Assembly (NCBI RefSeq): GCF_025150745.1
Contig: NZ_CP102282.1
Location: forward strand, 1,499,501 to 1,563,500
Length of the DNA: 64,000 nucleotides
Reading direction: 5' to 3'
DNA from: Eubacterium ventriosum
Lineage (GTDB): Bacteria; Bacillota; Clostridia; Lachnospirales; Lachnospiraceae
The notes under the pieces were generated by a model. The model searched no databases. It worked only from the letters and a program-made list of their open reading frames with translations, and had not been told where the DNA came from. Position 1 is the first letter of the stretch, and each line of letters starts with the position of its first letter. The position numbers and the translations under genes were made by a program. Of the stretch, positions 5,629 through 53,919 are shown piece after piece.

Positions 5629-5657
5629 GCGTTTGGTTGGGAGGGGGGACAATTAAA

Positions 5658-31294: not shown

Positions 31295-31457
31295 TAGTTT
31301 GTAATTGTGCTTTGGCACAGCTAATATTGTTTTAAATACCGGATTTTCCGGTTTTAACCGTGGGAAGAATTTCTTCACACATATTTAAGGTAATGGTTTA
31401 ATCCATTACAGAATAAATAAGCGACAAGTTCGCAAAAGTATTTTTGGAGGAAAAAAG

Positions 31458-32330
31458 ATGAAGGTAGGAGTAATTGGTGCCGGAACAATGGGCCAGGGAA
31501 TCGCTAAGGCTTTCGCTCAGGTTGATGGATACACAGTAGCATTATGTGACATCAAGCAGGAATGGGCTGAAGGTGGAAAAGACAAGATTGCTAAAGGTTA
31601 TGCAAGACTTGTACAGAAAGGAAAAATGACACAGGAGCAGGTTGATGGTATTCTTGCAAGCATCACACCAGGTATTAAAGAAGACTTATGTGCTGACTGC
31701 GATTTAATCGTAGAAGCTGCTTTTGAAAATATGGAAGTTAAGAAAACAACATTTGGCGAATTAGATAAGATTTGTAAGCCTGAATGTATCTTTGCTTCAA
31801 ACACATCATCTCTTTCAATTACAGAGATTGGAAATGGTCTTACACGTCCTATGATTGGTATGCATTTCTTCAATCCTGCAGATAGAATGAAATTAGTAGA
31901 AGTTATCGCAGGCGTTAACACACCTGACGAAACAGTAGAAGAAATCATCAAGATTTCAAAAGAAATCGGCAAGACACCTGTACAGGTAAATGAAGCTGCC
32001 GGATTTGTAGTTAACAGAATCTTAATCCCAATGATTAACGAAGCTGCTTTCATTAAGATGGAAGGTGTTTCAGACATCGCTGGTATTGATGCAGCAATGA
32101 AACTTGGTGCAAATCACCCAATGGGACCTCTTGAATTAGGAGATTTTGTTGGTTTAGATATCTGCCTTGCAATTATGGATGTTCTTTACAATGAAACAGG
32201 CGACAGCAAATATCGTGCATGTCCATTAATCCGTAAGATGGTTAGAGGTGGAAACCTTGGTGTTAAATCAGGTAAGGGATTCTACGTTTATAACGCAGAT
32301 CGCACAAAAACACCAGTTGATGCTCAGTAA
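31458..32330 (+). CDS. hbd: 3-hydroxybutyryl-CoA dehydrogenase
   Basis: Reduces acetoacetyl-CoA to (S)-3-hydroxybutyryl-CoA. 290 residues. Rossmann motif VGVIGAGTMGQGIAKAFAQ at the N-terminus, ASNTSSLSITEI near 116, the catalytic His in IGMHFFNPADRMKLVEVI near 137 and the Glu partner in that segment. The C-terminal helical domain has NRILIPMINEAAF, LGANHPMGPLELGDFVGLD and GKGFYVY. Start ATG 31458 has TTGGAGGAAAAAAG upstream. Followed 33 bp later by bcd. Confidence 0.97.
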   Translation: MKVGVIGAGTMGQGIAKAFAQVDGYTVALCDIKQEWAEGGKDKIAKGYARLVQKGKMTQEQVDGILASITPGIKEDLCADCDLIVEAAFENMEVKKTTFGELDKICKPECIFASNTSSLSITEIGNGLTRPMIGMHFFNPADRMKLVEVIAGVNTPDETVEEIIKISKEIGKTPVQVNEAAGFVVNRILIPMINEAAFIKMEGVSDIAGIDAAMKLGANHPMGPLELGDFVGLDICLAIMDVLYNETGDSKYRACPLIRKMVRGGNLGVKSGKGFYVYNADRTKTPVDAQ

Positions 32331-32363
32331 TTAGGGCAAACAATAAATATGGAGGAAAGATAA

Positions 32364-33521
32364 ATGGATTTTACTTTAAGCAAAAAACATGAAATGGCAA
32401 GAACTCTTTTCAAAGAATTCGCTGAAAATGAAGTTAAACCTCTTGCACAGGAAACAGATGAAAATGAACAGTTCCCTGTTGAGACAGTTGAAAAGATGGC
32501 AAAATATGGTTTCCTTGGTATTCCAGTTCCTAAGGAATATGGCGGACAGGGATGTGATCCTTTAACATATGCTATGTGTGTTGAAGAATTATCAAAAGTA
32601 TGTGGTACAACAGGTGTTATCGTATCAGCTCATACATCACTTTGTATCGATCCTATTATGACATTCGGTACAGAAGAACTGAAAAAGAAATATGTAGTTC
32701 CACTTGCAAAGGGTGAAAAGTTAGGTGCTTTCGGTCTTACAGAACCAGGTGCAGGTACAGATGCTCAGGGACAGCAGACAAAGGCTGTTTTTGATGAAGC
32801 TACAAATGAATGGGTATTAAATGGTTCTAAGTGCTTTATTACAAATGGTAAGTACGCAGATGTTTATATCGTAATCGCTGTAACAGGTAAAGTTGAAAAA
32901 CGTGGTAGAATGATGAAAGAAATTTCAGCATTTATCGTTGAAAAAGGAACTCCAGGATTCACATTCGGAACAAAAGAAAAGAAAATGGGTATCCGTGGTT
33001 CAGCAACATATGAATTAATTTTTGAAGATTGCCGTATCCCAGCTGAAAACTTACTTGGTAAGAAGGGTAAAGGTTTCAACATTGCAATGCATACACTTGA
33101 TGGTGGACGTATTGGTATCGCTGCACAGGCTCTAGGTCTTGCAGAAGGCGCTTTAGAAACAACTATCGAATATGTAAAGGAAAGAAAACAGTTCGGAAGA
33201 TCAATCGGACAGTTCCAGAATACACAGTTCCAGTTAGCAGATATGGCTACTAAGGTAGAAGCTGCTAAGATGCTTGTTTACAAAGCAGCAATGGCTAAGG
33301 CTACACAGAAGACATACTCTTTTGAAGCTGCTCAGGCTAAATTATGCGCAGCAGAAGTTGCAATGGAAGTTACAACTAAGGCTGTTCAGTTACATGGTGG
33401 TTATGGTTATATCAGAGAATATGACGTTGAAAGAATGATGAGAGATGCTAAGATTACAGAAATCTACGAAGGTACTTCAGAAGTTCAGCGTATGGTAATC
33501 TCTGCAAACTTATTAAAATAA
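32364..33521 (+). CDS. bcd: Butyryl-CoA dehydrogenase
   Basis: FAD flavoprotein reducing crotonyl-CoA to butyryl-CoA. 385 residues, full-length acyl-CoA dehydrogenase. Visible: AFGLTEPGAGTDAQGQ (FAD loop) near 128, CFITNGKYADV, RKQFGRSIGQFQ near 273, QLHGGYGYIREY near 346 and the catalytic Glu near 369 in IYEGTSEVQ. Together with EtfAB encoded just downstream it is expected to form the electron-bifurcating complex that couples crotonyl-CoA reduction by NADH to ferredoxin reduction (known for clostridial Bcd/EtfAB). 15 bp separate it from etfB. Confidence 0.97.
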   Translation: MDFTLSKKHEMARTLFKEFAENEVKPLAQETDENEQFPVETVEKMAKYGFLGIPVPKEYGGQGCDPLTYAMCVEELSKVCGTTGVIVSAHTSLCIDPIMTFGTEELKKKYVVPLAKGEKLGAFGLTEPGAGTDAQGQQTKAVFDEATNEWVLNGSKCFITNGKYADVYIVIAVTGKVEKRGRMMKEISAFIVEKGTPGFTFGTKEKKMGIRGSATYELIFEDCRIPAENLLGKKGKGFNIAMHTLDGGRIGIAAQALGLAEGALETTIEYVKERKQFGRSIGQFQNTQFQLADMATKVEAAKMLVYKAAMAKATQKTYSFEAAQAKLCAAEVAMEVTTKAVQLHGGYGYIREYDVERMMRDAKITEIYEGTSEVQRMVISANLLK

Positions 33522-38506: not shown

Positions 38507-39868
38507 ATGTTAGAAAAATTATTTAAACTCAAAGAGAACAACACTTCCGTAAAAACAGAAGTAGTTGCGGGTGTTACAACATTTATGACTATGGCATATA
38601 TTCTTGCTGTAAACCCAAGCATCTTAAGCGCTTCAGGTATGAATCCGGAAGCTATTCTTATTGCAACATGTCTTGCATCATTTATTGGTACAATGTGTAT
38701 GGCTCTTATGGCTAATCTTCCATTTGCTTTGTCAGCAGGTCTTGGACTTAACGCTTACTTTGCATACACAGTTTGTGGAGAAATGGGTTATTCATGGCAG
38801 ATAGCATTATTTGCAGTATTTGTTGAAGGTATTATCTTTATAATACTTTCATTAACAAATGTTCGTGAAGCTATCTTTGATGCTATTCCAGTTAATCTTA
38901 AGAAAGCAGTATCAGTAGGTATCGGTTTATTCATCGCATTCATTGGATTACAGAATGCTGGTCTTGTAGTTGATTCATCAACACTTGTTACAATTACAGA
39001 CTTTACACAGAATTTCCATACAGCAGGTATTTGTGCATTATTAGCAGTTATCGGTGTATTTATTACAGCAATTCTTTATATTAAGAGAGTAAAAGGTTCA
39101 ATTCTTGTTGGTATCGTATCAACATGGATTCTTGGAATCATCTGCGAACTTACAAAGATTTACGTTCCTGATGGAAAGGACTTTTTCTCAGTTATCCCTA
39201 CTAAGTTTGTAAGTTTTGACTTCTCAGCTATAGGTGATACATTTGGACAGTGTTTCAATCTCAACTTTAAGGCAGTAGGTATTGTAAACTTCATCATCGT
39301 TGTATTTGCATTCCTTTTCGTTGACTTATTTGATACATTGGGAACAATCATTGGTGTAAGTACAAAAGCAGGAATGCTTGATGAAAATGGTAAATTACCA
39401 AAAATCAAACCTGCACTTATGTCAGATGCTATTGCTACATCAGTAGGTGCTGTCCTTGGTACATCAACAACAACAACATTCGTTGAATCATCAGCCGGTG
39501 TTGCTGAAGGTGGACGTACAGGTCTTACATCAGTAATAACAGGTGTTTTATTCCTTATAGCAATGATTTTCTCACCATTATTCATTACAATTCCATCATT
39601 TGCTACAGCTCCTGCACTTATTATGGTAGGATTCCTTATGTTTGGTGCTGTTACAGATATTAAGTTTACAGATGATAACTTAACAGAAGCAATTCCTGCA
39701 TACCTTTGCATTATTGCAATGCCATTATTCTACAGCATTTCAGAAGGTATCTCAGTAGGAATCATTTCATACGTATTACTTAACTTAGTAACAGGTAAAG
39801 GAAAGAAAGTTAAACCTTTATTATACGTATTAGCAGTATTATTCGTATTGAAGTATATATTCTTATAA
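38507..39868 (+). CDS. NCS2 family purine permease (AzgA/PbuG type)
   Basis: 453 residues, 12-14 membrane helices. The subgroup is recognisable as the adenine/guanine/hypoxanthine branch (COG2252): KTEVVAGVTTFMTMAYILAVNP at 14-35, LPFALSAGLGLNAYFAYTV near 72, FVDLFDTLGTIIGVSTKAG near 270 and the substrate-site block STTTTFVESSAGVAEGGRTGLTSV near 320. Probable role: proton-coupled uptake of hypoxanthine, guanine or adenine. Single gene, with its own promoter and a perfect terminator 140 bp downstream. Confidence 0.94.
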   Translation: MLEKLFKLKENNTSVKTEVVAGVTTFMTMAYILAVNPSILSASGMNPEAILIATCLASFIGTMCMALMANLPFALSAGLGLNAYFAYTVCGEMGYSWQIALFAVFVEGIIFIILSLTNVREAIFDAIPVNLKKAVSVGIGLFIAFIGLQNAGLVVDSSTLVTITDFTQNFHTAGICALLAVIGVFITAILYIKRVKGSILVGIVSTWILGIICELTKIYVPDGKDFFSVIPTKFVSFDFSAIGDTFGQCFNLNFKAVGIVNFIIVVFAFLFVDLFDTLGTIIGVSTKAGMLDENGKLPKIKPALMSDAIATSVGAVLGTSTTTTFVESSAGVAEGGRTGLTSVITGVLFLIAMIFSPLFITIPSFATAPALIMVGFLMFGAVTDIKFTDDNLTEAIPAYLCIIAMPLFYSISEGISVGIISYVLLNLVTGKGKKVKPLLYVLAVLFVLKYIFL

Positions 39869-39980
39869 GATTATAGTGTTAAAAGGTTTTGTTCCATCTG
39901 CGTATGTATAAAGGTAGGATAATAACCTTGGAACACGCTTATAATATGAACATAAAAAAGTCCGAGATCAATTTGAATAT

Positions 39981-40004
39981 TGAGGTGACCCCAAAAAGTT
40001 AGAC
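39981..40004. mobile_element. Possible relic end of an IS3/IS150-type element
   Basis: GAGGTGACCCCAAAAAGTTA followed by GAC resembles the terminal inverted repeat of IS150-group IS3 elements as I remember it. There is no transposase and no second end in the window. It may be a remnant or coincidence. Confidence 0.25.
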
Positions 40005-40010
40005 TTTTTA

Positions 40011-40041
40011 CGAGACGACTTCGGTCGTCTCGTTTTTTTTT
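40011..40041 (+). terminator. Terminator downstream of the purine permease gene
   Basis: CGAGACGAC-TTCG-GTCGTCTCG followed by nine T: perfect stem with UUCG tetraloop. Confidence 0.93.
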
Positions 40042-40252
40042 ATGCAGTAAGGAGATGGAGCCTGTATTGAACACAAATCTTGGAAAATAATATAGATTTA
40101 CTAATTCCGGATTAGACAAAACGACCATCGTTTTATTTAAAAGACAGTAAAATAAAAAACATGTTCGTAAAAAAGAAAATAAAAGTAAAAAATTTAAATG
40201 GGGAGATGAAGAGTAAATGAATACAACAGCAGATAATAATTATTATTTGCTC

Positions 40253-40281
40253 TAGAACATTTATAAAAAACGTGGTACAAT
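40253..40281 (+). promoter_or_regulatory. Promoter of the cobalamin riboswitch transcript
   Basis: TAGAAC (40253-40258), 17-bp spacer, TACAAT (40276-40281), about 20 bp before the first riboswitch helix. Confidence 0.5.
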
Positions 40282-40302
40282 AACACCGATTTTAACACAA
40301 CG

Positions 40303-40484
40303 ATTCTAAGTTCTCTAAAGTCTGTCTTTAGAGCTAAGAGGGAAACAGGTGAGAGACCTGTACAGTCGTGCTACTGTAAATGTGTAGTTTTTTCAGTGAC
40401 TTTTATATAGAAGTCAACCATTGTGCCAAGGCATGAGAAGGTAGAAAAAACGTTACTGCATAAGTCAGGAGACCTGCTTAGAAT
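40303..40484 (+). ncRNA. Cobalamin riboswitch
   Basis: The outer helix ATTCTAAG (40303-40310) pairs with CTTAGAAT (40477-40484). Between them lie the conserved core GAGGGAAACAGGTGAGAGAC-CTGTACAG, the loop GCTACTGTAAATGTG, and the 3' B12-box AAGTCAGGAGACCTGC (40462-40477). These elements are diagnostic of the B12 element that binds adenosyl- or other cobalamins. With the terminator at 40588 it is set to stop transcription of the downstream surface-protein gene when cobalamin is plentiful. Which cobalamin form it prefers cannot be read. Confidence 0.93.
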
Positions 40485-40587
40485 TTCTTCCATTTACACA
40501 CGTAATTGCAAATGGCAAGTTATAAGCTTTTTAAAGACAGGCTTTCAGATTGAATCTGAAGGTTTGTTACGCGAGTTTTGATTTTGC

Positions 40588-40621
40588 CGGGATACAATAA
40601 TGTTGTGTCCCGATTTTTTTA
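40588..40621 (+). terminator. Expression-platform terminator of the cobalamin riboswitch
   Basis: CGGGATACAA pairs with TTGTGTCCCG (one G-U pair), followed by ATTTTTTT. It lies about 100 nt after the B12 box and 84 nt before the start codon. Confidence 0.85.
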
Positions 40622-40674
40622 CTTAATAAGTGATAGGAAACAGTGGTGTTAAAAAAGGAAAAATGAAAGGAGAG

Positions 40675-40694
40675 ATGATGTAAAGTTACATCAT
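40675..40694 (+). promoter_or_regulatory. Hairpin at the translation start region of the giant surface protein
   Basis: ATGATGTAA-AG-TTACATCAT is a perfect 9-bp inverted repeat between a strong AAAGGAGAG site and the weak AAGGA before the real ATG at 40705. The strong site would serve a two-codon Met-Met-stop ORF. Confidence 0.5.
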
Positions 40695-40704
40695 AAGGAA
40701 CAGA

Positions 40705-43700
40705 ATGAAAAAACTTTGGAAAAGTGGCGTTGCCTTAGTTTTAGTATGTGCACTTATGTTTACTCAGTTTAATACTGTAAATGTTTTTGCAAATACAAGT
40801 GTTCAGGCAGAAGAGTCTGAAACTAAGGAACAGATAACTGTATCTGTAACAGTAGTAGGCGACAGCGTTCACGGAACAGAAGCACATACCCGTTTCGAGA
40901 ACTGGCTTGTAAACTACAAAGTTACAGTTGACAAAGGGGCAACTGCTGATGATGCTTTTAAGAAAGCATTGGAAAGCAATGGATATAGTTATGAAAAAAA
41001 TAGTTGGAATGGATTAAACAGCATTACAAAGCCTGACGGAACAGTTCTTGGAAGTGGTTCTAACGGTGATGCATGTAGTTGGATGTTTGCCATAAATGGT
41101 GCAGATCCTGATCCTAATGTAGTTATGCCTCAGTATACTCTTAAAGATGGGGAAAAAATAACTGCATACTTTATTGATGATTGGAATGCATACCCTTATA
41201 CAATTCCAACAGTTGGTGTTAATGGAAAGGGTACTGCAGATGATCCTTACACAATCAAGGATGCATCAGAATTACCTGAAGTAATTGAAGAGGGAGATGT
41301 TTATGCATTAACTGATGATATTACTTTAGAATCAGGTCAGTATATTAAAGACATTAAAGGAACTTTAGATGGAAAAGGTCACACAATCACATTGGCAGAT
41401 ACATATTTGGCAGATAGGGTTGAAGGAACAATCGAAAACCTTGGAGTAACAAGTACTTCTGAAATTACATTACCTGATGAATCAGGAAGTATGGCAAATA
41501 CTGTTTCAGGTACAATTGTAAATAGTTATTCAACTGCAAAAATAAAAGCAACAACAGATTGGGGAGAAGTAGGTGGATTAGTAGGAACAATGTCAGGTTC
41601 TACGATTTCAAACTGCTATTTTGCAGGAAGTTTTGGTGACTATTCTATGGGAGGAATAGCATATACAAGTTCATCATCACAGTCTACAATTTCAAACAGC
41701 TATTTTACGGTAGGATTATCACCTGTATCTATGGGAAGTGCAACAAAAGTCAACTGTGAGAAGAAGACAGAAGAAAAGTTAAAGGCTTCTGAAGGAATAG
41801 AGGCATTAAACAAAGATATTTCTGACACAGGCTTTGAATGGTCATTACCAACTGATGGAAGCAACAATGGATTGCCTGTTTTAACAGTACCATCTGATAT
41901 TGTTGACAAAACTCAGTTAGTAGCACAGATTGAAGTTGCTCAGAAGATAACAAAGGCTGACTATACTGATAAGTCATGGAATGCATTGCAGGAAGCTTTA
42001 GCAGAAGCAATTAAAGTTAATAGTGATGACAATGCAACAAAATCACAGGTTACAAAAGCTACAAATAATTTATTATCAGCAATTAGCAATTTGAAAAATA
42101 ATAAACCGACTAAGCCTGTAGCATTGCCAACAGATGACAGTAAGATTACGCACATAAAAACATTAAAAGATTTAAATGCGATTAAAGCTTCAAGTGGAAA
42201 ATATTATGTTTTAGACAATGATATTACAGTTAAAAACACACAAGATGATTTTTATTTTAGCATGGAAAACTTTAATGGTGTTCTTGATGGAAAAGGACAT
42301 TCTATTAAAATTGAAAACATTTCAGATGGAATTTTTTCAAATGTAAATGAAGATGGTATAATTCAGAATGTTTATTTTACAGGAACAATGAATGTTGGTC
42401 AGGGATATAAGGGACCTCTTGGAAGCAACATGTCAGGTGCAATTATTAACTGTTATACAGATATTTCAGGAACAGGAACTTGCGGTTTTGCCAGAAGATT
42501 AACAGATGCAGGTATTGTATCTAACAGCTATTCAGTAAGTGAAGGCAAGGCAGGTGCTTTCTTTAATCAGTACGGAACTAACGATACTGCAGGAGAAGGA
42601 CAGTTAATTAATACATATTGGTTAGAAACATTAGACAACAGTGTTATTCCTGAAAGAGCTCTTGTTAATTCATATTCAGAAACTAAGGATTATATGAAAT
42701 CTTTAGATTTTGTAAGTGCTTTAAATGAAAATAAGGGCGAAAACGGTGTAAGCTGGGGAAGAAACGGAAATACAGGTTATCCATATTTTGGTGAAAGCCA
42801 GGATTACAATCCGGGAAGTACTTTACCTGCAAACAAATACACAGTTAAGTTTACTAAGTTTGACAACACAGTAGCTACAGTAGAAAATCAGAATTTAGAA
42901 ATTTCATGCAACGACGTTGATGGTTCTAACATTGCCGGTTCATTAAGCTTAGAAGGAGTACCTTCAACAAGCACAATTGAATGGTCGTATGAAAGTGTAG
43001 AACCTAGCGGAGCTATTATGGTTGGTTCTGATGGTGGTGTAATCAGAGTTGACAAAGCAGGAACAGCAGTTGTTAAGGCAACTGAAACTAAGGAAGATGG
43101 TAGTTCAGAAGTAGTAGCTGCATTTAATCTTAAAGCATATAACAAAGATGTAGAAGAAATAAAAGCATACATTGACGGACAGGATGTTACAAACGGGGAA
43201 TTTACAGTTAAGGGTTCAGAAATAAAAACTGTAAAGATGGAAGTTAAATACAAAAATGAGAACAAGTTTGTAGCAATTTCTCCAAGAAGATTTTCATTAA
43301 AAGTTGATGATGAAAGTTTTATTGAGAATATTCCGGGTTCAAACAGTTTTAGCTTTAAAAAAGCAGGGACTTCAAAAATTACTGCAATTTATAGCGACAA
43401 CACAGACCTAAAGGCAGATGTAACATTAACATCAGAATACGTGGCAGTAAAATCAGTTACACCTGCAATTAATGACAGCGTAACAATTCACGGCAGAAAT
43501 GCTAACAGCACTAACGGCCAGGATTTTGTACCTGATTATTCATCAGTAATAGTTGATCCGGCAAACGCAACTAATGCAGCTAATTACACAATTGAAAGCA
43601 GCGATAAAACTATTGGTGAATATGTTCCAAGTATGGTTATTGGTTATGTACCATACAAGGCAGGAACAGTTACATATACAGCAACTATTAAGGACACAGA

Positions 43701-46700
43701 TCCAAATGGAACTGAAAATGTTGTTTCAGGTTCAAAAGATGTAACATACAAATATTTAAATCCTTTAACATCTGTAACAACAGATGAAAAAGAAATTACA
43801 ATTAAGGCTAATGAAGAATCAGCAGTTAACTTAACTTTCACAGGTGAAAAATCTGAAGAAGGTTATAGTGTTACTGAACCGGAACTTAATTGGACATATT
43901 CTACAGATGGAATTGCAAAAATTGAGAGAAAAACAGCTTATCAGTGGAAGAGGGACGAAAGTGCACCTGATAATAATAACTGGCTTCCAGGCACAGATTA
44001 TTACGTATACGGCTTAAGCGAAGGCACAGTTACAGCTACAGGAACACCCGTTGATAAAACAAATAATGTAGAACCTGTTGTTTTGACAATAAAGGTTGAA
44101 GCAAGTGAACAGGAAGCACCTGATTTGACAGCTCTTACAAATAAGGGATTGAAAGGATTCCTTTCATATGCAGAAAAGAATGTTAACCAAAATTATGACA
44201 TTAACGGTGCATGGAACCTTTATACACTTGCAAGAGCAGGAAAATCTATTACAATTCAGGAAGCCAATAAATACTATGATGCAGTAGTAGAGGCAAGCAA
44301 GAATTGGACAGTAGAAGGAACAAAGCCTACTGACATGGAAAAGGCAGCTCTTGTTTTATCACTTATAAACAGAGACATAACAAATGTAGACGGTGTAAAT
44401 ATTGCACAGTTAATTTACAACAGTGAAAAGTTGTCTGACGGAGCAAATGAATTAGCATATGCTTTATTGGCACTTGATGCAAGAAATACAGTAATTCCAA
44501 GTGATGCTAAGTGGTCAAGAGAGAAGATTATTGCAGAACTTAAGAAATTCCAGAATGAAGACGGTGGTATCGGCTGGACAAAGGGCTCGTCAGATGTCGA
44601 TACAACAGCAATGGTTCTTCAGGCACTTGGAAGATATCAGGATAATGAAGCAGCAAAAGAAATCATTGAAAAAGCATTAACTTATATTGAATCAAAAGCT
44701 GACGCAAATTATGATTATGGAAATGCAAACACAACAGCAATGGTTGTACTTGCTTTAACTTCATTAAACAAAGATGTAACAACAACAATTGGTACAAAAT
44801 ATAAGAACACATTAACAGCTTTAATGAGCTATTACAGTGAAGATGATGGAGCTTTCGTATATCTTAAAGGTGGAAAAGTAAACCAGTATGCTACAATTCA
44901 GGCAGTTTGGGCATTAACATCTTACAAGCTTTATACAGAAGGTAAGGGTGGATACTGGAATCTTAATAATGTTAAGATTAAATATGAAGGTGAAGATGAG
45001 TATTATGCCTCACTTGTAACAGAAAAGATTGCAGCAATCGGCACAGTAACAGAAGAAAGTGAAGATGCAATTAAGGAAGCAAGAGCAGCTTATGATGCTT
45101 TAACTTCAGCACAGAAGAAACTTGTAACAAACTATGATGTTTTAGATGAAGCAGAATTACAGCTTGAAATTATTAAGGGGACAGCAGTAACAACTAAGTT
45201 CTCATTAGTAGGTGATGACGTTCATGGTTCATCGGGACATGTTTCATACAGTACTTGGATTGCTAATGCGACAATTACAGTTAAGAGTGGTTCAAAAGCA
45301 TCGGATGTAATTGTAAAAGCATTTAAGCAGTATGGATATTCAATTATCGGCTCAACAAGTTATATTTCAGGTGTAACAACACCATCAGGAGTAAGCTTAA
45401 AGGCATTTGATAATGGTTCAGGCAGTGGTTGGATGTATGCTGTAAATGGAAAGAGTCCAAATGTGGGAAGCAGCGGTTACAAGGTTAGCAAAGACGATAA
45501 TATTATTCTTTATTATGTTGACGATTGGAGCAATGCTAAGGTTCCAACAGTTGAGGATCCTGCTGATAATCAGAAGGCGGCAGATGCAGTAATTAAGAAG
45601 ATTTCTGAAATTGGAGAAGTTACAGAAAGTAGCAAAAATCTTATTAAAGAAGCAAGAGCATCTTATGACGCACTAACAGATGCTCAGAAAGAATTAGTAA
45701 CTAATTATGATGTATTAGTACAGGCTGAAGCACAGCTTGAAAATATAAAAGACAATGCAGTTTCAACTAAGTTTACATTAGTAGGTGATGATGTTCACGG
45801 AACAAAAATCCATACTTCTTATACAAGATGGATTAGTAACATTACAGTAAAAGTTAGAAAAGATGCAACAGCAGGAGATGTAATAACAAAGGGCTTAAAG
45901 GCAAAAGGTTATGAAGCAGAAGTAAACGCTGAGTACAACTATATTACAGCAATTACAACACCAACAGGTACAAAACTTGCAGCATATGATAATGGTTCAA
46001 ACAGTGGTTGGATGTATGCTGTAAATGGAGAAGCTCCAAGTGTTGGAATGGCAGATTATGTAGTTAAGGAAAACGATGCAGTAATTCTTTACTATGTTGA
46101 TGATTACATGGATACAAAGATTCCTGCAATGGATGCTGAAACAGAAAACAAACAGTTAGCAGCAGAAGTTACAGAAAAAATTGCTTCAATTGGCAAGGTT
46201 ACAAAGGATAGCGAAGCAGCAATTAAGGAAGCAAGAGCAGCTTATGACAGCTTAACTGCAACACAGAAATCTCTTGTAACTAACTTTGATGTATTGGAAG
46301 AAGCAGAATTACAGCTTGATATTATCAAGGGTAATGTAATCCAGACTAAGTTTACTTTAGTAGGTGATGATGTTCATGGAACAAATGCTCATAAATCATA
46401 TACTAACTGGATTAATGATATTACAGTAACAGTAAAGAACGGTGCAACAGTATCAGATGTAATTGCAAAAGCATTAAAAGACAACGGCTATTCATCAGAA
46501 GGAACAACTAACTACATTTCAGCAATCAAAACACCATCAGGAATAACTCTTGGTGAATTTGATAATGGTCCAAGAAGTGGTTGGATGTACGCAGTAAACG
46601 GCAAGGCTCCAAACGTAGGAATTGCTGATTATAAAGTAAAAGCAGGAGACACAATAAAGTTCTACTATGTTGATGATTATACAAAGGACGATACACCTAC

Positions 46701-47214
46701 AATTGATGCTTCAGGAGATACACATACAAAGAAATTATCACCTGCAACAGTAAAAGTAGCAAAGACAGCTTACAATATAGTTAAATTAACTTGGACAAAA
46801 GCCGACAATGCTACAAAATATCAGGTATATCGTAAAGTCGGAAAGAACAGCAAATTCGTAAACATTGCAACAACAACATCATTAAAATACACAGACAAGA
46901 AGGTTAAGACAGGCAAGAAGTATTATTATAAAGTAGTTGCAGTAAACGAAAAGGGCGAAACTGTTGATTCAAAGACAGTAAAGGCAACACCAAAGGCTAA
47001 AAAGTTGAAAGTTAAGGCAAAGAAGAAAGCCGGCAGAACAGTACTTAGCTGGAAGAAAGTAAAAGGTGCAACAGGATACAAAGTATACAGAAGCACAAAG
47101 AAAAACGGCAAGTATAAGAAAGTAAAGACAATTACTAAGAAGTCATTAGCAACATTCAAGGCAAAGAAGAGTAATAAGAAATATTACTACAAGGTAGTGG
47201 CTTACAAGAAGTAA
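40705..47214 (+). CDS. Giant secreted transcobalamin-like protein (four DUF4430 domains, alpha-toroid, Fn3), probable cobalamin-binding surface protein
   Basis: 2169 residues. Signal peptide about 1-29. First DUF4430 (transcobalamin C-terminal-like) domain about 45-160 with VVGDSVHG and WMFAING. GLUG-like beta-helical repeats (GTLDGKGHTITL, GGLVGTMSGSTISNCYF) about 165-400, a FIVAR-like helical module about 410-470, a second beta-helical part to about 710, and Ig-like segments about 715-1135. An alpha/alpha-toroid at about 1142-1416 has VDTTAMVLQALGRY, NTTAMVVLALTSL and YATIQAVWALTSY repeats. Three tandem units of helical linker plus DUF4430 follow (VGDDVHG at about 1502, 1693, 1886; each with SGWMYAVNG), then two lysine-rich Fn3 domains about 2010-2169. 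No LPXTG motif. Toroid plus DUF4430 is the two-domain plan of intrinsic factor and transcobalamin, and the gene lies under a cobalamin riboswitch. Cobalamin capture is therefore a well-supported inference, not a demonstrated fact. Confidence 0.85.
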   Translation: MKKLWKSGVALVLVCALMFTQFNTVNVFANTSVQAEESETKEQITVSVTVVGDSVHGTEAHTRFENWLVNYKVTVDKGATADDAFKKALESNGYSYEKNSWNGLNSITKPDGTVLGSGSNGDACSWMFAINGADPDPNVVMPQYTLKDGEKITAYFIDDWNAYPYTIPTVGVNGKGTADDPYTIKDASELPEVIEEGDVYALTDDITLESGQYIKDIKGTLDGKGHTITLADTYLADRVEGTIENLGVTSTSEITLPDESGSMANTVSGTIVNSYSTAKIKATTDWGEVGGLVGTMSGSTISNCYFAGSFGDYSMGGIAYTSSSSQSTISNSYFTVGLSPVSMGSATKVNCEKKTEEKLKASEGIEALNKDISDTGFEWSLPTDGSNNGLPVLTVPSDIVDKTQLVAQIEVAQKITKADYTDKSWNALQEALAEAIKVNSDDNATKSQVTKATNNLLSAISNLKNNKPTKPVALPTDDSKITHIKTLKDLNAIKASSGKYYVLDNDITVKNTQDDFYFSMENFNGVLDGKGHSIKIENISDGIFSNVNEDGIIQNVYFTGTMNVGQGYKGPLGSNMSGAIINCYTDISGTGTCGFARRLTDAGIVSNSYSVSEGKAGAFFNQYGTNDTAGEGQLINTYWLETLDNSVIPERALVNSYSETKDYMKSLDFVSALNENKGENGVSWGRNGNTGYPYFGESQDYNPGSTLPANKYTVKFTKFDNTVATVENQNLEISCNDVDGSNIAGSLSLEGVPSTSTIEWSYESVEPSGAIMVGSDGGVIRVDKAGTAVVKATETKEDGSSEVVAAFNLKAYNKDVEEIKAYIDGQDVTNGEFTVKGSEIKTVKMEVKYKNENKFVAISPRRFSLKVDDESFIENIPGSNSFSFKKAGTSKITAIYSDNTDLKADVTLTSEYVAVKSVTPAINDSVTIHGRNANSTNGQDFVPDYSSVIVDPANATNAANYTIESSDKTIGEYVPSMVIGYVPYKAGTVTYTATIKDTDPNGTENVVSGSKDVTYKYLNPLTSVTTDEKEITIKANEESAVNLTFTGEKSEEGYSVTEPELNWTYSTDGIAKIERKTAYQWKRDESAPDNNNWLPGTDYYVYGLSEGTVTATGTPVDKTNNVEPVVLTIKVEASEQEAPDLTALTNKGLKGFLSYAEKNVNQNYDINGAWNLYTLARAGKSITIQEANKYYDAVVEASKNWTVEGTKPTDMEKAALVLSLINRDITNVDGVNIAQLIYNSEKLSDGANELAYALLALDARNTVIPSDAKWSREKIIAELKKFQNEDGGIGWTKGSSDVDTTAMVLQALGRYQDNEAAKEIIEKALTYIESKADANYDYGNANTTAMVVLALTSLNKDVTTTIGTKYKNTLTALMSYYSEDDGAFVYLKGGKVNQYATIQAVWALTSYKLYTEGKGGYWNLNNVKIKYEGEDEYYASLVTEKIAAIGTVTEESEDAIKEARAAYDALTSAQKKLVTNYDVLDEAELQLEIIKGTAVTTKFSLVGDDVHGSSGHVSYSTWIANATITVKSGSKASDVIVKAFKQYGYSIIGSTSYISGVTTPSGVSLKAFDNGSGSGWMYAVNGKSPNVGSSGYKVSKDDNIILYYVDDWSNAKVPTVEDPADNQKAADAVIKKISEIGEVTESSKNLIKEARASYDALTDAQKELVTNYDVLVQAEAQLENIKDNAVSTKFTLVGDDVHGTKIHTSYTRWISNITVKVRKDATAGDVITKGLKAKGYEAEVNAEYNYITAITTPTGTKLAAYDNGSNSGWMYAVNGEAPSVGMADYVVKENDAVILYYVDDYMDTKIPAMDAETENKQLAAEVTEKIASIGKVTKDSEAAIKEARAAYDSLTATQKSLVTNFDVLEEAELQLDIIKGNVIQTKFTLVGDDVHGTNAHKSYTNWINDITVTVKNGATVSDVIAKALKDNGYSSEGTTNYISAIKTPSGITLGEFDNGPRSGWMYAVNGKAPNVGIADYKVKAGDTIKFYYVDDYTKDDTPTIDASGDTHTKKLSPATVKVAKTAYNIVKLTWTKADNATKYQVYRKVGKNSKFVNIATTTSLKYTDKKVKTGKKYYYKVVAVNEKGETVDSKTVKATPKAKKLKVKAKKKAGRTVLSWKKVKGATGYKVYRSTKKNGKYKKVKTITKKSLATFKAKKSNKKYYYKVVAYKK
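45037..46700 (+). repeat. Three internal repeats of about 575 bp in the giant gene
   Basis: The sequence GTAGGTGATGA recurs at 45208, 45781 and 46360 (spacing 573 and 579 bp), each with the same flanking codons (linker GKVT...AIKEARAAYD, then DUF4430). These are gene-internal duplications, diverged at the protein level. Confidence 0.85.
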
Positions 47215-47344
47215 TATAGGAAATGTTATTACAAGGCAGCGGCTTACAAGAAGTAATATAAGAAATATTATTACAAGGCAGCGGCTTACAAGAAGTAATA
47301 TAGGAAATATTATTACAAGGCAGCAATTTATAAGAAATAAGCAA
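47177..47344 (+). repeat. Four 42-bp tandem repeats copying the 3' end of the gene including its stop codon
   Basis: The last 14 codons of the giant gene (about 47177-47218, ending GGCTTACAAGAAG-TAA-TAT) are repeated at period 42 (GGCTTACAAG at 47199, 47241 and 47283; last copy ends TATAAGAAATAA). Each copy is in the same frame and ends in TAA, so the stop is repeated with the unit. Confidence 0.9.
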
Positions 47345-47985: not shown

Positions 47986-49053
47986 TTAGTATACCTTCGC
48001 TTCTTCTTCACCATTCATAACTCTTAAAGCACCCTGTGCAAGTGCAAGTAATTCATCTTCACCAGGGTAAACAGTTACAGGGGCAATCCATTCAACAGCA
48101 TTCTTCATATCTGCCTGTGTCTTGGCACTGTAAGCAATACCACCTGTTAAGATAATCTGGTCAACCTTTCCGCCAAGAACTACTGACATGGCACCGATTT
48201 CTTTACATAACTGATAGTGGAAAGCATCAACAACAGCTTCAGCCTTTTTGTCGCCTTCTTCGATCATTTTAAGTAAATCTCTCATATCATTAGAACCAAC
48301 ATAAGCATTGAAACCGCCGTTACCATTTAACATCTTGCCAACTTCTGCCTGTGTATATTTGCCACTGAAGCAAGCTTTTACTAAAGCACCTGTTGGAAGT
48401 CCGCCTGAACGTTCAGGTGAGAAAGGACCATCACCATCTAATGCATTAGCAACGTCAACAACTTTACCATTCTTATGAGCACCAACTGAAACACCGCCAC
48501 CCATATGAACAACGATTAAGTTTAAGTCTTCGTAATTCTTGCCAACTTCTTTTGCATATCTCTTTGCAACAGCTTTCTGATTTAAAGCATGGAAAATAGA
48601 AGTTCTTGGGAAAAGAGGATGTCCTGATAATCTTGCAACATCAGCTAATTCATCAACAACTACCGGGTCAACAATGTATGAAGGAACATTGATTTCTGCA
48701 GCAATTTCTGAAGCTAAAATACCACCAAGGTTTGAAGCATGCTGTCCCTGTTTTCCAACCTTTAAGTCTTCTAATAATTCAGGAGTTGTAGCATATGTTC
48801 CACCAGGGATTGGTTTTAATAAACCGCCACGACCTACAACAACATCAATATCATTTAAGTCAACATTCTTTTCTTTAAGAACATCTAAAATAACTTCTTT
48901 ACGGAAATCTTTCTGATCGTAAATCGTATCATATTTTGCAATTTCTTCTGTTGAATGTCTAAGAGTTTCTTCCATTAACTGAGTTTCATCTTCATATACA
49001 CCAATCTTAGTAGAAGTAGAACCAGGATTGATAATTAAAATTTTGTATGACAT
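47986..49053 (-). CDS. buk: Butyrate kinase
   Basis: Converts butyryl phosphate and ADP to butyrate and ATP, the energy-yielding last step. 355 residues, acetate/butyrate kinase (ASKHA) fold. Visible: [18 protein letters not shown] at the start (phosphate 1), [14 protein letters not shown] near 75, [40 protein letters not shown] near 175 and [13 protein letters not shown] near 290. The [14 protein letters not shown] end is characteristic of Buk rather than AckA. The start ATG follows TTGGAGGTATAAAA. The gene follows ptb by 97 bp. Confidence 0.96.
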
Positions 49054-49094
49054 TTTTATACCTCCAATAAATTAAATGTATTGTCATTTATCAC

Positions 49095-49131
49095 AATGGG
49101 CAAAAGTTAAACAAACAACAATTGCCCGTTT
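49095..49131 (-). promoter_or_regulatory. Hairpin between ptb and buk
   Basis: On the minus strand CGGGCAATTG...TTTTGCCCATTG can pair (GGGCA/TGCCC) in the 97-bp gap. Possible mRNA processing or attenuation element. Confidence 0.35.
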
Positions 49132-49150
49132 TTATAAATCAAAAATTAGA

Positions 49151-50062
49151 TTACTTAAGGTTTTCAGCAACGATTGCAGCAAGTGCAATTGAGTTAACCT
49201 TTACTTCGAATTCATCTGAACGTGATGTTAAGATAACAGGAGCTTTTGTACCTGTTAAAATATTTCCGTTAACACATTTAGCAGTATGAACTAAAGCTTT
49301 GTATGTGATGTTTCCTGCATGAATGTCAGGGAATAATAATACATCAGCATCACCAACAATCTTTCTATCAGTTGTACCTTTGTGGTAAGCTGCTTCAGGT
49401 TCTATTGCAAGGTCAAGTGAAAGAGGTCCGTCAACAATACAACCTGTAATCTTTCCTTCTTCGTTCATCTTTGTAAGTTCATCAGCTTCTACAGTACAAG
49501 GCATCTTTGGATTTACAACTTCAACAGCTGCAAGTGGAGCTACCTTTGGACATTCAATACCACAAGCATGTGCAATTTCAACTGTATTCTTAATAATCTG
49601 AGCCTTTGTATCAAGGTCAGGATAAGGAACAAAAGCAACGTCTGATAAGAATAAAAGACGATCAATACCTTTTATTTCAAAAACGCAAACGTGTGATAAT
49701 GTTTTGTCAGTTCTAAGACCAACTTCTTTATCTAAAACACTCTTTAAGAATGATTTTGTATCAATAAGACCTTTCATATACATATCAGCTTTGCCGTCAT
49801 GAACTAACTTAACAGCAGTTCTTGCAGCTTCAATAGGATCAACAACATTAATAATTTCGAATTCGTTAATATTCATTTTTAAAACACCAGCGATTGTTCT
49901 AATCTTAGCTTCATCACCAACTAAAATAGCATCAGCTATATGTCTTTCCTTTGCTGCCTTAACAGCTTCTAATACTGCATCGTCCTGAGCACAGGCAACA
50001 GCAACCTTCTTCATAGGACATTCAGCTACCTGTGCAAGTAAATCTTTAAAACTTTTACTCAT
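49151..50062 (-). CDS. ptb: Phosphate butyryltransferase
   Basis: Transfers butyryl from CoA to phosphate, making butyryl phosphate for Buk. 303 residues. Visible: MKKVAVACAQDDAVLEAVKAAKE near 20, DILVGDE-like AILVGDEAKI, DMYMKGLIDTKSFLKSVLD near 105, LSHVCVFEI, FLSDVAFVPYPDLDTKAQI and DVLLFPDIHAGNITYKALVH near 233. These are typical of Ptb rather than the longer Pta. The start is ATG 50062 (GAGGTG 8 nt upstream). The GTG three codons earlier lies in the binding site. First gene of ptb-buk. Confidence 0.95.
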   Translation of the reverse strand: MSKSFKDLLAQVAECPMKKVAVACAQDDAVLEAVKAAKERHIADAILVGDEAKIRTIAGVLKMNINEFEIINVVDPIEAARTAVKLVHDGKADMYMKGLIDTKSFLKSVLDKEVGLRTDKTLSHVCVFEIKGIDRLLFLSDVAFVPYPDLDTKAQIIKNTVEIAHACGIECPKVAPLAAVEVVNPKMPCTVEADELTKMNEEGKITGCIVDGPLSLDLAIEPEAAYHKGTTDRKIVGDADVLLFPDIHAGNITYKALVHTAKCVNGNILTGTKAPVILTSRSDEFEVKVNSIALAAIVAENLK

Positions 50063-50135
50063 TTTGTACACCTCATAGAAATTTATTTGATTATATATTT
50101 TTAATAGGAAATAATCCTAAAAATAACTAATTTAA

Positions 50136-50372: not shown

Positions 50373-52187
50373 ATGAAGATTTTAAGATTTCTAAAAAACT
50401 ACAAAAAGGAATCGCTTCTGGCACCATTATTTAAAATGATGGAAGCAATTTTTGATTTGCTAGTTCCTTTAGTTGTAGCAAGAATTATTGATAATGGTAT
50501 CAGAAGGGGAGATACAACCTATGTTTTGCAGATGGGGGGTGTGCTGTTATTGTTAGCAGCGTGCGGTTTGACTTTTTCACTTACGGCACAGTTTTTTGCG
50601 GCAAAAGCAGCAGCAGGATTTGGTAAAGAACTTAGACATTCACTGTTTGATCATATACAAAAATTGTCGTACACTCAGCTTGACAATCAGGGAACATCAA
50701 CACTTATAACAAGAATGACATCTGATGTTAACCTTGTGCAGACTCAGGTTAATATGGCCATAAGATTATTACTTCGTTCACCGTTTATTGTTTTTGGCGC
50801 AATGATTATGGCATTCTTTGTAGATGGAAAGACGGCTATGGTTTTTGTTGTGGCTATTCCGGTTTTGTCGGTTATAGTTTATGGAATTATGCTTATTACA
50901 ATTCCATTATATAAGAAAGTTCAGTCAAGACTTGACAAGGTTATGGGAAGTACAAGAGAGAATCTTGACGGTGTCCGAGTGATTAGAGCTTTTAATAAAC
51001 AGGAACAGGAAGTTGCAAGATATAATGAGGAAAATGCAACACTTGAAAAATTCCAGCTTTTTGCAGGAAGAATTTCAACATTAATGAACCCGGCAACTTA
51101 TATTGTGATTAACGTTGCAACCATTGGAATTTTGTGGGTAGGTGGAGATAGAGTTAACACAGGAAGCCTTACACAGGGACAGGTCGTAGCCTTGGTTAAC
51201 TATATGTCACAGATTCTTATTGAATTAATTAAGCTTGCAAACCTTATTATAAATCTTACAAAAGCTTTTGCAGCATCAGGAAGAATACAGGATATTTTTG
51301 ATATTGAGCCGGGAATGGCAGAAGGAAATATTGAATTAAATTTAGTTAATGACAATAATTCAAATGATGGAACTGGTAAATTAGCCGGCGAAAATGATTC
51401 AGATAATAAATTAAAAAATCCGGAAAACTACAACAAAGACATTGCAGTGGAATTTGAAAATGCTACTTTGAAATACCAGGGCGCAGGCGAAAGTTCAATA
51501 GAAAATGTTAATTTTAAGGCAAAGACCGGTCAGACAATCGGCATTATAGGAGGTACCGGTTCAGGTAAGACTTCATTAATTAATATGATTCCAAGATTTT
51601 ATGACCCTACAGAAGGAAAAGTTAAGATTTTTGGAATTGACGCAAAAGATTATAAGAGAAAAAATCTGGAAGATATTATTGGAGTTGTACCTCAAAAAGC
51701 ATTATTGTTTAAAGGTACAATAAGAAGCAACTTGCTTTGGGGCAATGAAAATGCTACAGAGGAAGAATTAGTGGAAGCTTTGAAATTATCTCAGAGTTAC
51801 GATTTTGTAAAAGAAAAAGATAAAGGAATTGATAGCGAAGTGGCGCAAAAGGGAAAGAATTTCTCGGGTGGGCAGAAACAACGTCTTACAATTGCAAGAG
51901 CGTTGGTTAAAAAGCCTAAGATTTTGATTCTTGATGACAGTTCATCAGCACTTGATTATGCAACTGATGCAAAACTAAGAAGTGACATAAAGACACTTAA
52001 AGATATAACTTTGTTTGTAGTTTCTCAGAGAACAGCGTCAATTATGGATGCAGACCGGATAGTGGTTCTTGATGATGGAAAAGTTGTAGGATTTGGAACT
52101 CACGATGAATTGCTTAAAGATTGTTCAGTATATCAGGAAATCTATCAATCACAGTTTAAAAAGGGAGGGCAGTCAAATGGAAAATAA
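50373..52187 (+). CDS. ABC exporter, half-transporter 1 (membrane + ATPase)
   Basis: 604 residues. Six-helix type I exporter domain at about 1-305 (ARIIDNGIRRGD, FDHIQKLSYTQLDNQGTSTLITRMTSDVNLVQ, NLDGVRVIRAFNKQEQE), an Asn/Asp-rich insert at about 325-360, then the nucleotide-binding domain with Walker A GGTGSGKTSL near 394, signature FSGGQKQRLTIARAL and the degenerate Walker B region ILDDSSSALD, where Asp replaces the catalytic Glu. A switch residue in VVSQRT is Gln instead of His. These changes mark the degenerate site of a heterodimeric exporter (BmrC/LmrC-like). The partner follows with an 11-bp overlap. Substrate unknown. Confidence 0.93.
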   Translation: MKILRFLKNYKKESLLAPLFKMMEAIFDLLVPLVVARIIDNGIRRGDTTYVLQMGGVLLLLAACGLTFSLTAQFFAAKAAAGFGKELRHSLFDHIQKLSYTQLDNQGTSTLITRMTSDVNLVQTQVNMAIRLLLRSPFIVFGAMIMAFFVDGKTAMVFVVAIPVLSVIVYGIMLITIPLYKKVQSRLDKVMGSTRENLDGVRVIRAFNKQEQEVARYNEENATLEKFQLFAGRISTLMNPATYIVINVATIGILWVGGDRVNTGSLTQGQVVALVNYMSQILIELIKLANLIINLTKAFAASGRIQDIFDIEPGMAEGNIELNLVNDNNSNDGTGKLAGENDSDNKLKNPENYNKDIAVEFENATLKYQGAGESSIENVNFKAKTGQTIGIIGGTGSGKTSLINMIPRFYDPTEGKVKIFGIDAKDYKRKNLEDIIGVVPQKALLFKGTIRSNLLWGNENATEEELVEALKLSQSYDFVKEKDKGIDSEVAQKGKNFSGGQKQRLTIARALVKKPKILILDDSSSALDYATDAKLRSDIKTLKDITLFVVSQRTASIMDADRIVVLDDGKVVGFGTHDELLKDCSVYQEIYQSQFKKGGQSNGK

Positions 52188-53919
52188 TATGACGCAAAAA
52201 CAGGCCCTTATGGAATTGTTAAAAAGAATAAAAAAATATTGGCATTTGTTAATAGGTTCATTATTGTTTGCCCTGGTTTATGTTGTTTTGTCACTTTATG
52301 TACCAAAACTAATTGGTTTAGGAACTGACAAAATAGTATCAAAAGGCAATGTTGACTTTCAGGGATTAGAGAGAATAGCAGTGCAGATAGCTGTAATCGC
52401 TGCAATTGCAGGAATTGCCCAGTGGATTATGGGACTGTTAAACAACAGAATCACATATCACGTGATTAAAGACATTCGTCAGGAAAGTTTTGAGAGAATA
52501 CAGAAACTTCCTTTGGCTTACTTGGATACACATTCAACAGGTAGTCTTGTAAGTAGTATAATTGCGGACGTAGACCAGTTAGCAGACGGCTTACTTATGG
52601 GATTTTCAAATTTGTTTACAGGTGTTGTCACAATTGTTTTAACAATTGTTTTTATGTTACAGATTAACTGGAAAATTGCGTTGGTTGTTATTTGTATTAC
52701 ACCTGTATCGTTTTTTGTGGCGGGATTTATTGCAAAGCGTACGTATTCAATGTTTAGAAAACAGTCTGAAATAAGGGGTAGCCAGACAGCGTTTATTGAT
52801 GAAATGATAAGCGGTCAGAAAGTTGTTAAGGCTTTTGGACAGGAAGAAAAAGCCGTTCAGGATTTTGATGAAATCAACGATGAATTGGCAAAATATTATT
52901 TGAAGGGAACTTTCTTTTCATCAATAACAAATCCAAGTACAAGATTTGTCAACAATATAGTTTACGCCGGAGTTGCAATAAGTGGCGGCCTTGTGGCAAT
53001 TATGACAGGAGGAATTACTGTAGGTGGACTTGCAACAATCTTAAGTTATGCCAACCAGTACACAAAGCCTTTTAACGAGATTTCAGGTGTTGTTACGGAA
53101 CTTCAAAATGCCATTGCCTGTGGTGCAAAAATCTTTTCGCTTATTAATCAGGAAAAAGAGATTGATGTGGAAGAAAGTGAAAATCAGCTCCAGAATATTG
53201 AGGTAGGCAAAGTTGACATTAATGATGTTGATTTTTCTTATGTGCCGGATAGAAAATTAATCGAAAACTTAAATCTACACGTAAAGCCTGGTCAGAGAAT
53301 TGCAATTGTTGGACCGACAGGTTGTGGAAAAACTACAATCATAAATCTTTTGATGAGATTTTATGATGTGGACAAAGGTTCAATTACAATAGATGGAAAA
53401 GATATACGAGACATATCAAGAAAGAATTTAAGAAGCTCTTATGGAATGGTTCTTCAGGAAACATGGCTTAGAAATACTACGGTAAGAGAAAACATCGCTT
53501 TTGGAAAGCCTGATGCAACTGATGAAGAAATAGAAAATGCAGCAAAAGCAAGCTATGCACATAACTTTATTAAGCGTTTGCCAAATGGATATGATACAGT
53601 AATAGGTGAAGACGGAGGCAGTCTTTCACAGGGACAGAAACAGTTATTGTGTATAGCCCGTGTAATGTTATGTCTGCCACCAATGCTAATACTTGATGAA
53701 GCCACATCTTCAATTGATACAAGAACAGAAGTAAAGATTCAGGACGCATTTTCAAAAATGATGGAAGGCAGAACTACATTTATTGTAGCCCATAGACTTT
53801 CAACAATAAAAGAAGCAGACGTAATTCTTGTAATGAAGGATGGAAAAATAATCGAGCAGGGAAATCACGAAGAACTGCTTGAAAAGAGAGGGTTTTACTA
53901 TAAACTTTATAATAGCTAA
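52177..53919 (+). CDS. ABC exporter, half-transporter 2 (membrane + ATPase)
   Basis: 580 residues from ATG 52177 (GGGAGG 9 nt upstream; overlaps the previous stop by 11 bp). Type I exporter helices at about 20-310 (FERIQKLPLAYLDTHSTGSLVSSIIADVDQLADG, GQKVVKAFGQEEKAV), then a nucleotide-binding domain with Walker A GPTGCGKTTI near 386. The signature is LSQGQKQLLCIARVM, Walker B is ILDEATSSIDTRTE with the catalytic Glu, and the switch His is in VAHRLSTI. It therefore carries the residues its partner lacks, and the two are expected to act as one heterodimer exporting drugs, lipids or peptides. Confidence 0.94.
   Translation: MENNMTQKQALMELLKRIKKYWHLLIGSLLFALVYVVLSLYVPKLIGLGTDKIVSKGNVDFQGLERIAVQIAVIAAIAGIAQWIMGLLNNRITYHVIKDIRQESFERIQKLPLAYLDTHSTGSLVSSIIADVDQLADGLLMGFSNLFTGVVTIVLTIVFMLQINWKIALVVICITPVSFFVAGFIAKRTYSMFRKQSEIRGSQTAFIDEMISGQKVVKAFGQEEKAVQDFDEINDELAKYYLKGTFFSSITNPSTRFVNNIVYAGVAISGGLVAIMTGGITVGGLATILSYANQYTKPFNEISGVVTELQNAIACGAKIFSLINQEKEIDVEESENQLQNIEVGKVDINDVDFSYVPDRKLIENLNLHVKPGQRIAIVGPTGCGKTTIINLLMRFYDVDKGSITIDGKDIRDISRKNLRSSYGMVLQETWLRNTTVRENIAFGKPDATDEEIENAAKASYAHNFIKRLPNGYDTVIGEDGGSLSQGQKQLLCIARVMLCLPPMLILDEATSSIDTRTEVKIQDAFSKMMEGRTTFIVAHRLSTIKEADVILVMKDGKIIEQGNHEELLEKRGFYYKLYNS

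Follow-up and report, generated by a model that had tools for sequence, protein, structure and literature searches.

A 64,000-base stretch of the Eubacterium ventriosum genome, here called the window (positions 1,499,501-1,563,500 of the 2,856,089-base one-contig genome, GCF_025150745.1, NZ_CP102282.1), contains a gene for a protein of 2169 residues preceded by a cobalamin riboswitch. This gene probably encodes a secreted, transcobalamin-like bacterial protein for corrinoid capture, which is controlled by the riboswitch and hands vitamin B12 to an energy-coupling factor (ECF) importer of the CbrT type for use by MetH. At low intracellular cobalamin the riboswitch would let transcription read past a terminator in the leader. 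Captured B12 would then pass to a membrane-bound alpha/alpha-toroid protein and a DUF4430 protein encoded with an importer at 487-492 kb, the extra DUF4430 domains of the large protein acting as weaker docking sites; B12 taken up through this ECF-CbrT-type operon would be used by MetH.

The riboswitch found 5' of the gene matches the entire covariance model RF00174 with 94.9 bits against a cut-off of 31.5 (E 2.3e-22), and no other match to this model was found in the whole 2.86-Mb genome. Two terminator-like sites were found in the interval 39860-40720, against 0.3 in shuffled sequences, one of them between aptamer and gene (Table 1) and the other upstream, at 40010-40033. The folded leader has a z of -5.6, and the terminator hairpin forms within it. 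A riboswitch and a terminator at this place had been noted in a preliminary description of this DNA, and both were confirmed. A passage in PMC11477304 describes cobalamin riboswitches as OFF switches.

The window protein matched DUF4430 (PF14478) with 147.5 bits against a cut-off of 23.8 (E 1.6e-43), and three stretches passed singly; in the same Pfam search, which the preliminary description had proposed, the toroid matched cyclase/prenyltransferase models with E 0.087 at best. The order of regions is a signal peptide, recognised by eye, a DUF4430 domain, a middle part with GLUG-like and other regions, the toroid, three units of a helical spacer plus DUF4430, and a basic fn3-like end. The composition of signal peptide, toroid and four DUF4430 domains had been proposed with limits of 1142-1416 for the toroid and 45-160, 1490-1612, 1686-1807 and 1879-1997 for the DUF4430 domains, all within 13 residues of the limits now given by our own profiles (Table 1). 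These profiles include the domains of the window protein, and so they set boundaries and are no proof of identity. In alignments, the second and third DUF4430 domains are each 58% identical to the fourth, and the first, N-terminal one shares 43% of its residues with the fourth. The SGWMYxVNG core is kept in the second to fourth domains, and the three spacers share 35-43 identical residues among 64-66 aligned positions. The likeness of the spacers and the identity among these three domains suggest that the array grew recently in tandem. The GLUG likeness of the middle part rests on BLAST, which matched it with P0003 (E 1e-6), a protein linked to a riboswitch; Glug was not among the Pfam matches of the window protein, and no NCBIfam family matched it. 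The fn3 match in the C-terminal region scored 20.1 bits, under the Pfam cut-off of 25, and in the PDB the region matched the Fn3-like entry 3mpc (E 2.3e-8). Matches to this region recur in other proteins of the same genus and of the same genome, which, together with its basic, lysine-rich composition, suggests that it may be a wall-binding module.

The fold of the toroid and the second DUF4430 domain was modelled with AlphaFold2 from residues 1125-1620, which also include the intervening spacer, and 58 further alignment rows, 57 of them from genome-scan loci and one being the window toroid itself. The model had a mean pLDDT of 91.6 and a pTM of 0.79. When it was searched against the PDB, haptocorrin, transcobalamin and intrinsic factor took ranks 1-14 (E 4.0e-9 to 1.3e-6), followed by prenyltransferases as the next structural class (E 1.1e-4). 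The matches to B12 carriers have 489-522 aligned columns and therefore span both domains, in the same order of toroid then beta domain as in the animal proteins. A control model of the fused relative L091 (pLDDT 80.1) gave the same kinds of carriers at ranks 1-15, the next match having E 2.8e-5. In a plain sequence search the window protein picked up transcobalamin-2 with E 0.25. A profile built from 32 DUF4430 sequences, of which the window protein supplied four, had human transcobalamin-2 as its best PDB match (E 2.9e-4). In the model of the second DUF4430 domain, a helix (1532-1543) is followed by a two-strand insert (1546-1549 and 1554-1558), an arrangement that a passage of Burroughs et al. 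2007 (PMC1796856) gives as a mark of the transcobalamin-like SLBB clade. A signal peptide and a toroid in one chain, also traits of that clade, are present as well. The preliminary description had proposed an intrinsic-factor-like two-domain fold and had held that lack of a structural match to intrinsic factor would speak against it; the match was found and the fold is supported. The window toroid can be aligned with its relatives and is clear by structure.

DUF4430 domains and cobalamin riboswitches are linked across related genomes. In a sample of 60 genomes, including the one described here, DUF4430 was found in 31, a cobalamin riboswitch in 39 and both in 22, and 17 had a riboswitch without a DUF4430 match; this riboswitch search used stricter filters, with which weak matches are lost. 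The 22 genomes with both contain 23 riboswitches, of which 19 lie at most 10 kb upstream of a DUF4430 match on the same strand. Random placement, with genome sizes rounded and contig breaks ignored, gave a mean of 0.07 linked cases and a maximum of 3 in 20,000 trials. The 19 cases comprise the window's own, ten from the same genus, which are not independent, and eight from other genera, one of which (G042) scores 28.8 bits, under the Rfam cut-off. The four unlinked riboswitches are all from the same genus, three of them before surface proteins of the GLUG type with about 1000 residues and one before a protein matching CbiK.

The genomic context of such toroids was analysed with a toroid-profile scan of one genome from each of 84,980 species, and the counts below refer to the best 80 loci, which by their record titles are mostly from Clostridia, with some from Paenibacillus. 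With our own profiles, 77 loci showed a toroid on the match strand and 62 had EcfT, EcfA and EcfS together on the toroid strand, the EcfA profile matching other ABC ATPases too. A DUF4430 gene of less than 700 aa was present in 69 loci, a DUF4430 protein of at least 700 aa on either strand in 47, and a protein of at least 700 aa with toroid and DUF4430 together in 22; contig ends truncate some of the loci. Of 44 loci searched with Rfam, 26 have a riboswitch on the operon strand, and in 17 of these the next toroid or DUF4430 gene encodes at least 700 aa, with an intervening frame in L103, L104 and L106. Six of the other 18 have their first toroid or DUF4430 gene at most 31 bases from the locus edge, including L096, where a riboswitch is on the other strand only. 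For 50 of the best 80 loci the whole genome was scanned, and 49 of these genomes had a riboswitch at some position. Among small DUF4430 genes directly before EcfT, 13 of 55 showed a lipobox-like pattern, so that a lipoprotein-like small DUF4430 protein is not general.

No B12 transporter gene follows the capture gene, as had been stated in the preliminary description, and the importer that it supposed to be encoded elsewhere was found. Apart from the window gene, DUF4430 was found at a single locus of the genome, the tight minus-strand operon L006 at about 487-492 kb, in which adjacent frames overlap. A profile of 14 S components of this kind had 6fnp_A as the best PDB match (E 1.9e-18, the next being 5e-5); according to PMC5997447, 6FNP is the cobalamin transporter ECF-CbrT. 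In Pfam, the S component of L006 falls into general S-component families, with ECF-ribofla_trS as the best, and the operon toroid scores over the cut-off of cyclase/prenyltransferase models. Judged by its sequences, L006 is an ECF-CbrT-type importer with its own split intrinsic-factor-like pair. A BtuCD-type importer was ruled out, since a FecCD permease (BtuC type) was unmatched in the genome (control positive in 13 of 14).

The organism seems unable to make vitamin B12, according to its gene content: CbiC was also unmatched in the genome (control positive in 7 of 14). Two matches over the cut-off of PF02310 were found and named from sequence as MetH and a radical-SAM-like B12 protein. The B12-scavenging context put forward earlier is supported by the unmatched CbiC and FecCD, by MetH and by the loci of relatives.

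Table 1. Features of the capture gene and its leader (window positions) and of the importer operon (genome positions).
Feature	Position	Strand	Description
Cobalamin riboswitch aptamer RF00174	40291..40495	+	Full length, model 1-189
Intrinsic terminator, aptamer-to-gene interval	40588..40619	+	Stem 40588-40612, T-run after it
Predicted secreted protein	40705..47214	+	2169 aa, ATG start, first frame after terminator
DUF4430 no. 1	40828..41193	+	Residues 42-163, alignment and own profile
FIVAR-like module	41905..42093	+	Residues 401-463, 27.7 bits, under 29.2 cut-off
Alpha/alpha toroid	44167..44961	+	Residues 1155-1419, cysteine-free, divergent
Helical spacer 1	44992..45174	+	Model; similar spacers before DUF4430 nos. 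3 and 4
DUF4430 no. 2	45181..45537	+	Residues 1493-1611, Pfam and model
DUF4430 no. 3	45754..46116	+	Residues 1684-1804, Pfam and own profile
DUF4430 no. 4	46336..46692	+	Residues 1878-1996, Pfam and own profile
C-terminal fn3-like region	46720..47211	+	Residues 2006-2169, pI 10.4, 29% lysine
L006 gene 1	~487-492 kb	-	Toroid protein, 515 aa, C-terminal membrane segment by eye
L006 gene 2	~487-492 kb	-	DUF4430 protein, 165 aa, lipobox-like start by eye
L006 gene 3	~487-492 kb	-	EcfT, 301 aa, by eye and position, NCBIfam match absent
L006 gene 4	~487-492 kb	-	Double EcfA, 564 aa, ECF ATPase by NCBIfam
L006 gene 5	~487-492 kb	-	S component, 214 aa, CbrT-like

Several results weigh against the proposed capture and hand-over of B12. 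Conservation was scored on the 103 positions at which 73 stand-alone toroids agree to at least 80%. Of these, 44 are kept in the window toroid, 84 in the toroid encoded in L006 and a mean of 73.9 (range 35-96) in 21 embedded toroids. Residues lost in the window toroid include E->N1342, Q->M1346, H->Y1386 and E->I1398, all at positions conserved at 99-100%, and those kept include W1170, D1299, T1301, M1303, Q1306, Y1311 and Q1399. These losses suggest that its classical B12 site may be weakened or altered and that a larger share of the work may be done by the DUF4430 domains. The rmsd between the model and the B12 carriers across both domains is about 28-30 A, indicating that the two domains of the model are undocked, unlike in the crystal structures; a passage of PMC5599065 states that the domains of human transcobalamin (TC) come together only with cobalamin. 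Animal carriers were not found with the toroid sequence profile, which found terpene cyclases instead. Neither an LPxTG-like motif nor a C-terminal membrane segment was seen by eye in the window protein. A MetE-like frame passed the PF01717 cut-off over part of the profile, so that a strict B12 need may not hold, and the adenosyltransferase families PF01923 and PF02572 were unmatched in the genome, which bears on the form of cobalamin that the riboswitch meets in the cell. In nine of the 31 DUF4430 genomes of the sample a riboswitch was not found, and a full-length match to the window protein was absent from the matches listed for 22 other genomes of the genus, several of them incomplete.

Two claims of the preliminary description stand only in part or are doubtful. 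Exposure of the protein on the cell surface agrees with the signal peptide; an anchor was not found, and what the protein offers instead is a very basic fn3-like C terminus. Several binding sites per chain had also been proposed. A single toroid, and a divergent one, allows one classical sandwich site at most, so this idea is doubtful and rests on an analogy with the isolated beta domain of human transcobalamin (TC-beta), which binds cobalamin according to passages of PMC5599065 and PMC11107200; by this analogy, the extra DUF4430 domains could bind corrinoid alone.

How the protein works may therefore differ in detail from the outline given above. Capture could occur through the DUF4430 domains only, the toroid being a structural remnant or docking, for example, to the operon toroid. 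This is a sub-case that overlaps with corrinoid capture as proposed here, and it is possible though rather unlikely: it agrees with the poor conservation of the toroid, the intact core of DUF4430 nos. 2-4 and the binding of cobalamin by isolated TC-beta, but the toroid models confidently, has B12 carriers as its best matches and retains the seven residues from W1170 to Q1399 listed above. Also compatible with corrinoid capture, and unlikely, is a released corrinoid sponge that robs host carriers or neighbours, in place of a receptor bound to the wall. The signal peptide and the lack of visible anchoring motifs fit such a sponge; the C-terminal pI of 10.4 could nevertheless keep the protein on the wall, and large relatives are encoded beside the importer, suggesting cell-associated work. 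Withholding of B12 from competitors is speculation.

Two further alternatives depart from B12 capture. The large GLUG-like and FIVAR-like middle region, and the same-genus riboswitches that precede GLUG proteins of about 1000 aa without a DUF4430 match, would suit a mainly adhesin-like or structural surface protein, whose toroid and DUF4430 domains are past B12 binding and whose riboswitch was inherited. That four DUF4430 domains were kept, that this gene carries the one riboswitch detected in the genome and that large toroid/DUF4430 proteins adjoin the importer in many loci makes this improbable. A toroid with enzymatic activity, as a prenyltransferase, a terpene cyclase or a six-hairpin glycosidase, was suggested by the sequence profile of the relatives, which matches terpene cyclases and not B12 carriers. 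Pfam cyclase/prenyltransferase models, over the cut-off with the operon toroid and at E 0.087 with the window protein, pointed the same way. This alternative was rejected as a very remote prospect, given that B12 carriers rank over all such enzymes in the structure search and that the operon context of the relatives is vitamin import. Within the preferred reading, that of a riboswitch-controlled capture protein feeding the CbrT-type importer, a more detailed version is tentative, its chances being somewhat below even: a multivalent extracellular trap with one toroid and four beta-grasps, turned on by B12 shortage through a switch independent of the importer, would collect B12 and work in a two-stage relay to the membrane-tethered split intrinsic factor and ECF-CbrT. 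If true, this would be a Gram-positive intrinsic-factor-like relay comparable to the way in which B12 passes from carrier to carrier in animals, and an example of the systems from which Burroughs et al. proposed that the animal carriers arose.

The window locus differs from its counterparts in the genus. Among the matches listed, the best ones elsewhere in the genus cover the toroid, a DUF4430 domain or the C terminus, and the four DUF4430 domains per chain compare with a maximum of three among the proteins of the best 80 loci. In the same-genus loci L065, L083 and L084, the first elements of the operon are a riboswitch and the gene of a 375-450-aa DUF4430 protein; a DUF4430 gene of this type is also present in L067, L069 and L072, where a riboswitch was not found to E 1. 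L006 lacks both this first DUF4430 gene and the riboswitch, the sole riboswitch of the genome being about 1.05 Mb away on the giant gene. A hidden riboswitch at L006 was rejected, as none was found to E 0.1 or, in the upstream stretch, to E 1; 58 bases separate the neighbouring frame from the toroid frame. Since the only riboswitch is on the giant gene and none is at the importer operon, control of capture and control of import appear to be uncoupled in this genome. The neighbourhood of L006 (RsmI-like and spore-maturation-like genes, by eye) is the same as in relatives, apart from the riboswitch and the first DUF4430 gene.

Riboswitches of 111-120 bits were also observed before secreted GLUG proteins of about 1000 aa in L066 (6545-9481), L068 (5862-8828) and L070 (6386-9436), from three species of the genus and all on the minus strand. 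Two of these proteins are 52% and 55% identical to the third, and they have GLUG repeats plus Ig-like (aBig_2) or fn3 matches, and no DUF4430 match; by their sequences, they are a candidate for a further family of B12-related surface proteins. In L066 (about 300-6125, minus strand), the GLUG gene is followed by two more secreted proteins, one with fn3 over the cut-off and the other with fn3 just under it, and then by an RnfC gene, after which the frames resemble further rnf genes by eye. In L071 (4912-5428, plus strand), from the same-genus genome G017, a riboswitch precedes a lipoprotein-like frame that matches the CbiK cobalt chelatase with 43.1 bits and is truncated by the contig end.

At the end of the window gene, a 42-base tandem repeat of 3.7 copies (47170-47324) spans the stop codon, and the end of the coding sequence recurs in copies downstream of that codon. 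The next genes 3' of it, on the opposite strand (47986-50071), are of the acetate kinase and phosphate acetyl/butyryl-transferase families, with two half-transporter genes of the ABC exporter type beyond them (50373-53919). Together with thiolase and acyl-CoA dehydrogenase genes at 29133-33521, the genes at 47986-50071 indicate that the organism may produce butyrate.

Passages of Burroughs et al. (PMC1796856) predicted that bacterial toroid/SLBB surface proteins scavenge B12, gave as their hosts low-GC Gram-positives, usually without key enzymes of B12 synthesis, and proposed the bacterial kind as the source of the animal carriers. As in the clade described there, the window protein is multidomain and predicted to be secreted, with a toroid, beta-grasp domains and a FIVAR-like module, and relatives have CbiO/CbiQ-like operons; unlike it, the window protein has four DUF4430 domains with repeated spacers, a riboswitch on its gene and an importer operon apart. 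Riboswitches are nowhere named in their paper. With intrinsic factor, transcobalamin and haptocorrin, which are the best structural matches of its model, the window protein shares the toroid followed by a beta domain, the beta domain also being matched by sequence profile. The disulfide-bonded alpha domain of the animal carriers was not found: rat transcobalamin has four disulfides (passage of PMC11107200), whereas the window toroid has zero cysteines. Also unlike the animal carriers, the protein has numerous additional domains, four beta domains for its one toroid, and a toroid unmatched by sequence. BtuG and BtuH are Gram-negative proteins with other folds. Like these gut Bacteroides proteins, as described in PMC6143338 and PMC8941943, the window protein would capture B12 at the surface; unlike them, it would be an intrinsic-factor-like solution in a Lachnospiraceae-type bacterium. 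The L006 operon has a CbrT-like S component in common with ECF-CbrT (PMC5997447, 6FNP). Unlike that system, it also encodes a toroid protein, whose C-terminal end carries a membrane segment, and a DUF4430 protein; PMC5997447 places the CbrT of L. delbrueckii in an nrdJ-cbrS-cbrT-pduO cluster.

Among the titles and passages of the mainly open-access literature covered, neither B12 binding by a bacterial DUF4430 protein nor a linkage of DUF4430 with cobalamin riboswitches was reported, and by titles and abstracts bacterial transcobalamin-like proteins of this kind were treated by Burroughs et al. alone. The general idea of B12 scavenging was already predicted in 2007; what is new is the importer operon, the riboswitch linkage and the lack of matches to CbiC and to a BtuC-type permease alongside MetH.

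To our knowledge, B12 capture by Gram-positive gut bacteria is poorly known. The riboswitch linkage, the CbrT-type importer and the intrinsic-factor fold are three independent lines that point, for a number of Clostridia and Paenibacillus, to one solution: intrinsic-factor-like surface proteins that feed ECF importers. The sequence-based prediction of 2007 thereby becomes a directly testable system, which bears on the origin of the B12 carriers of animals.

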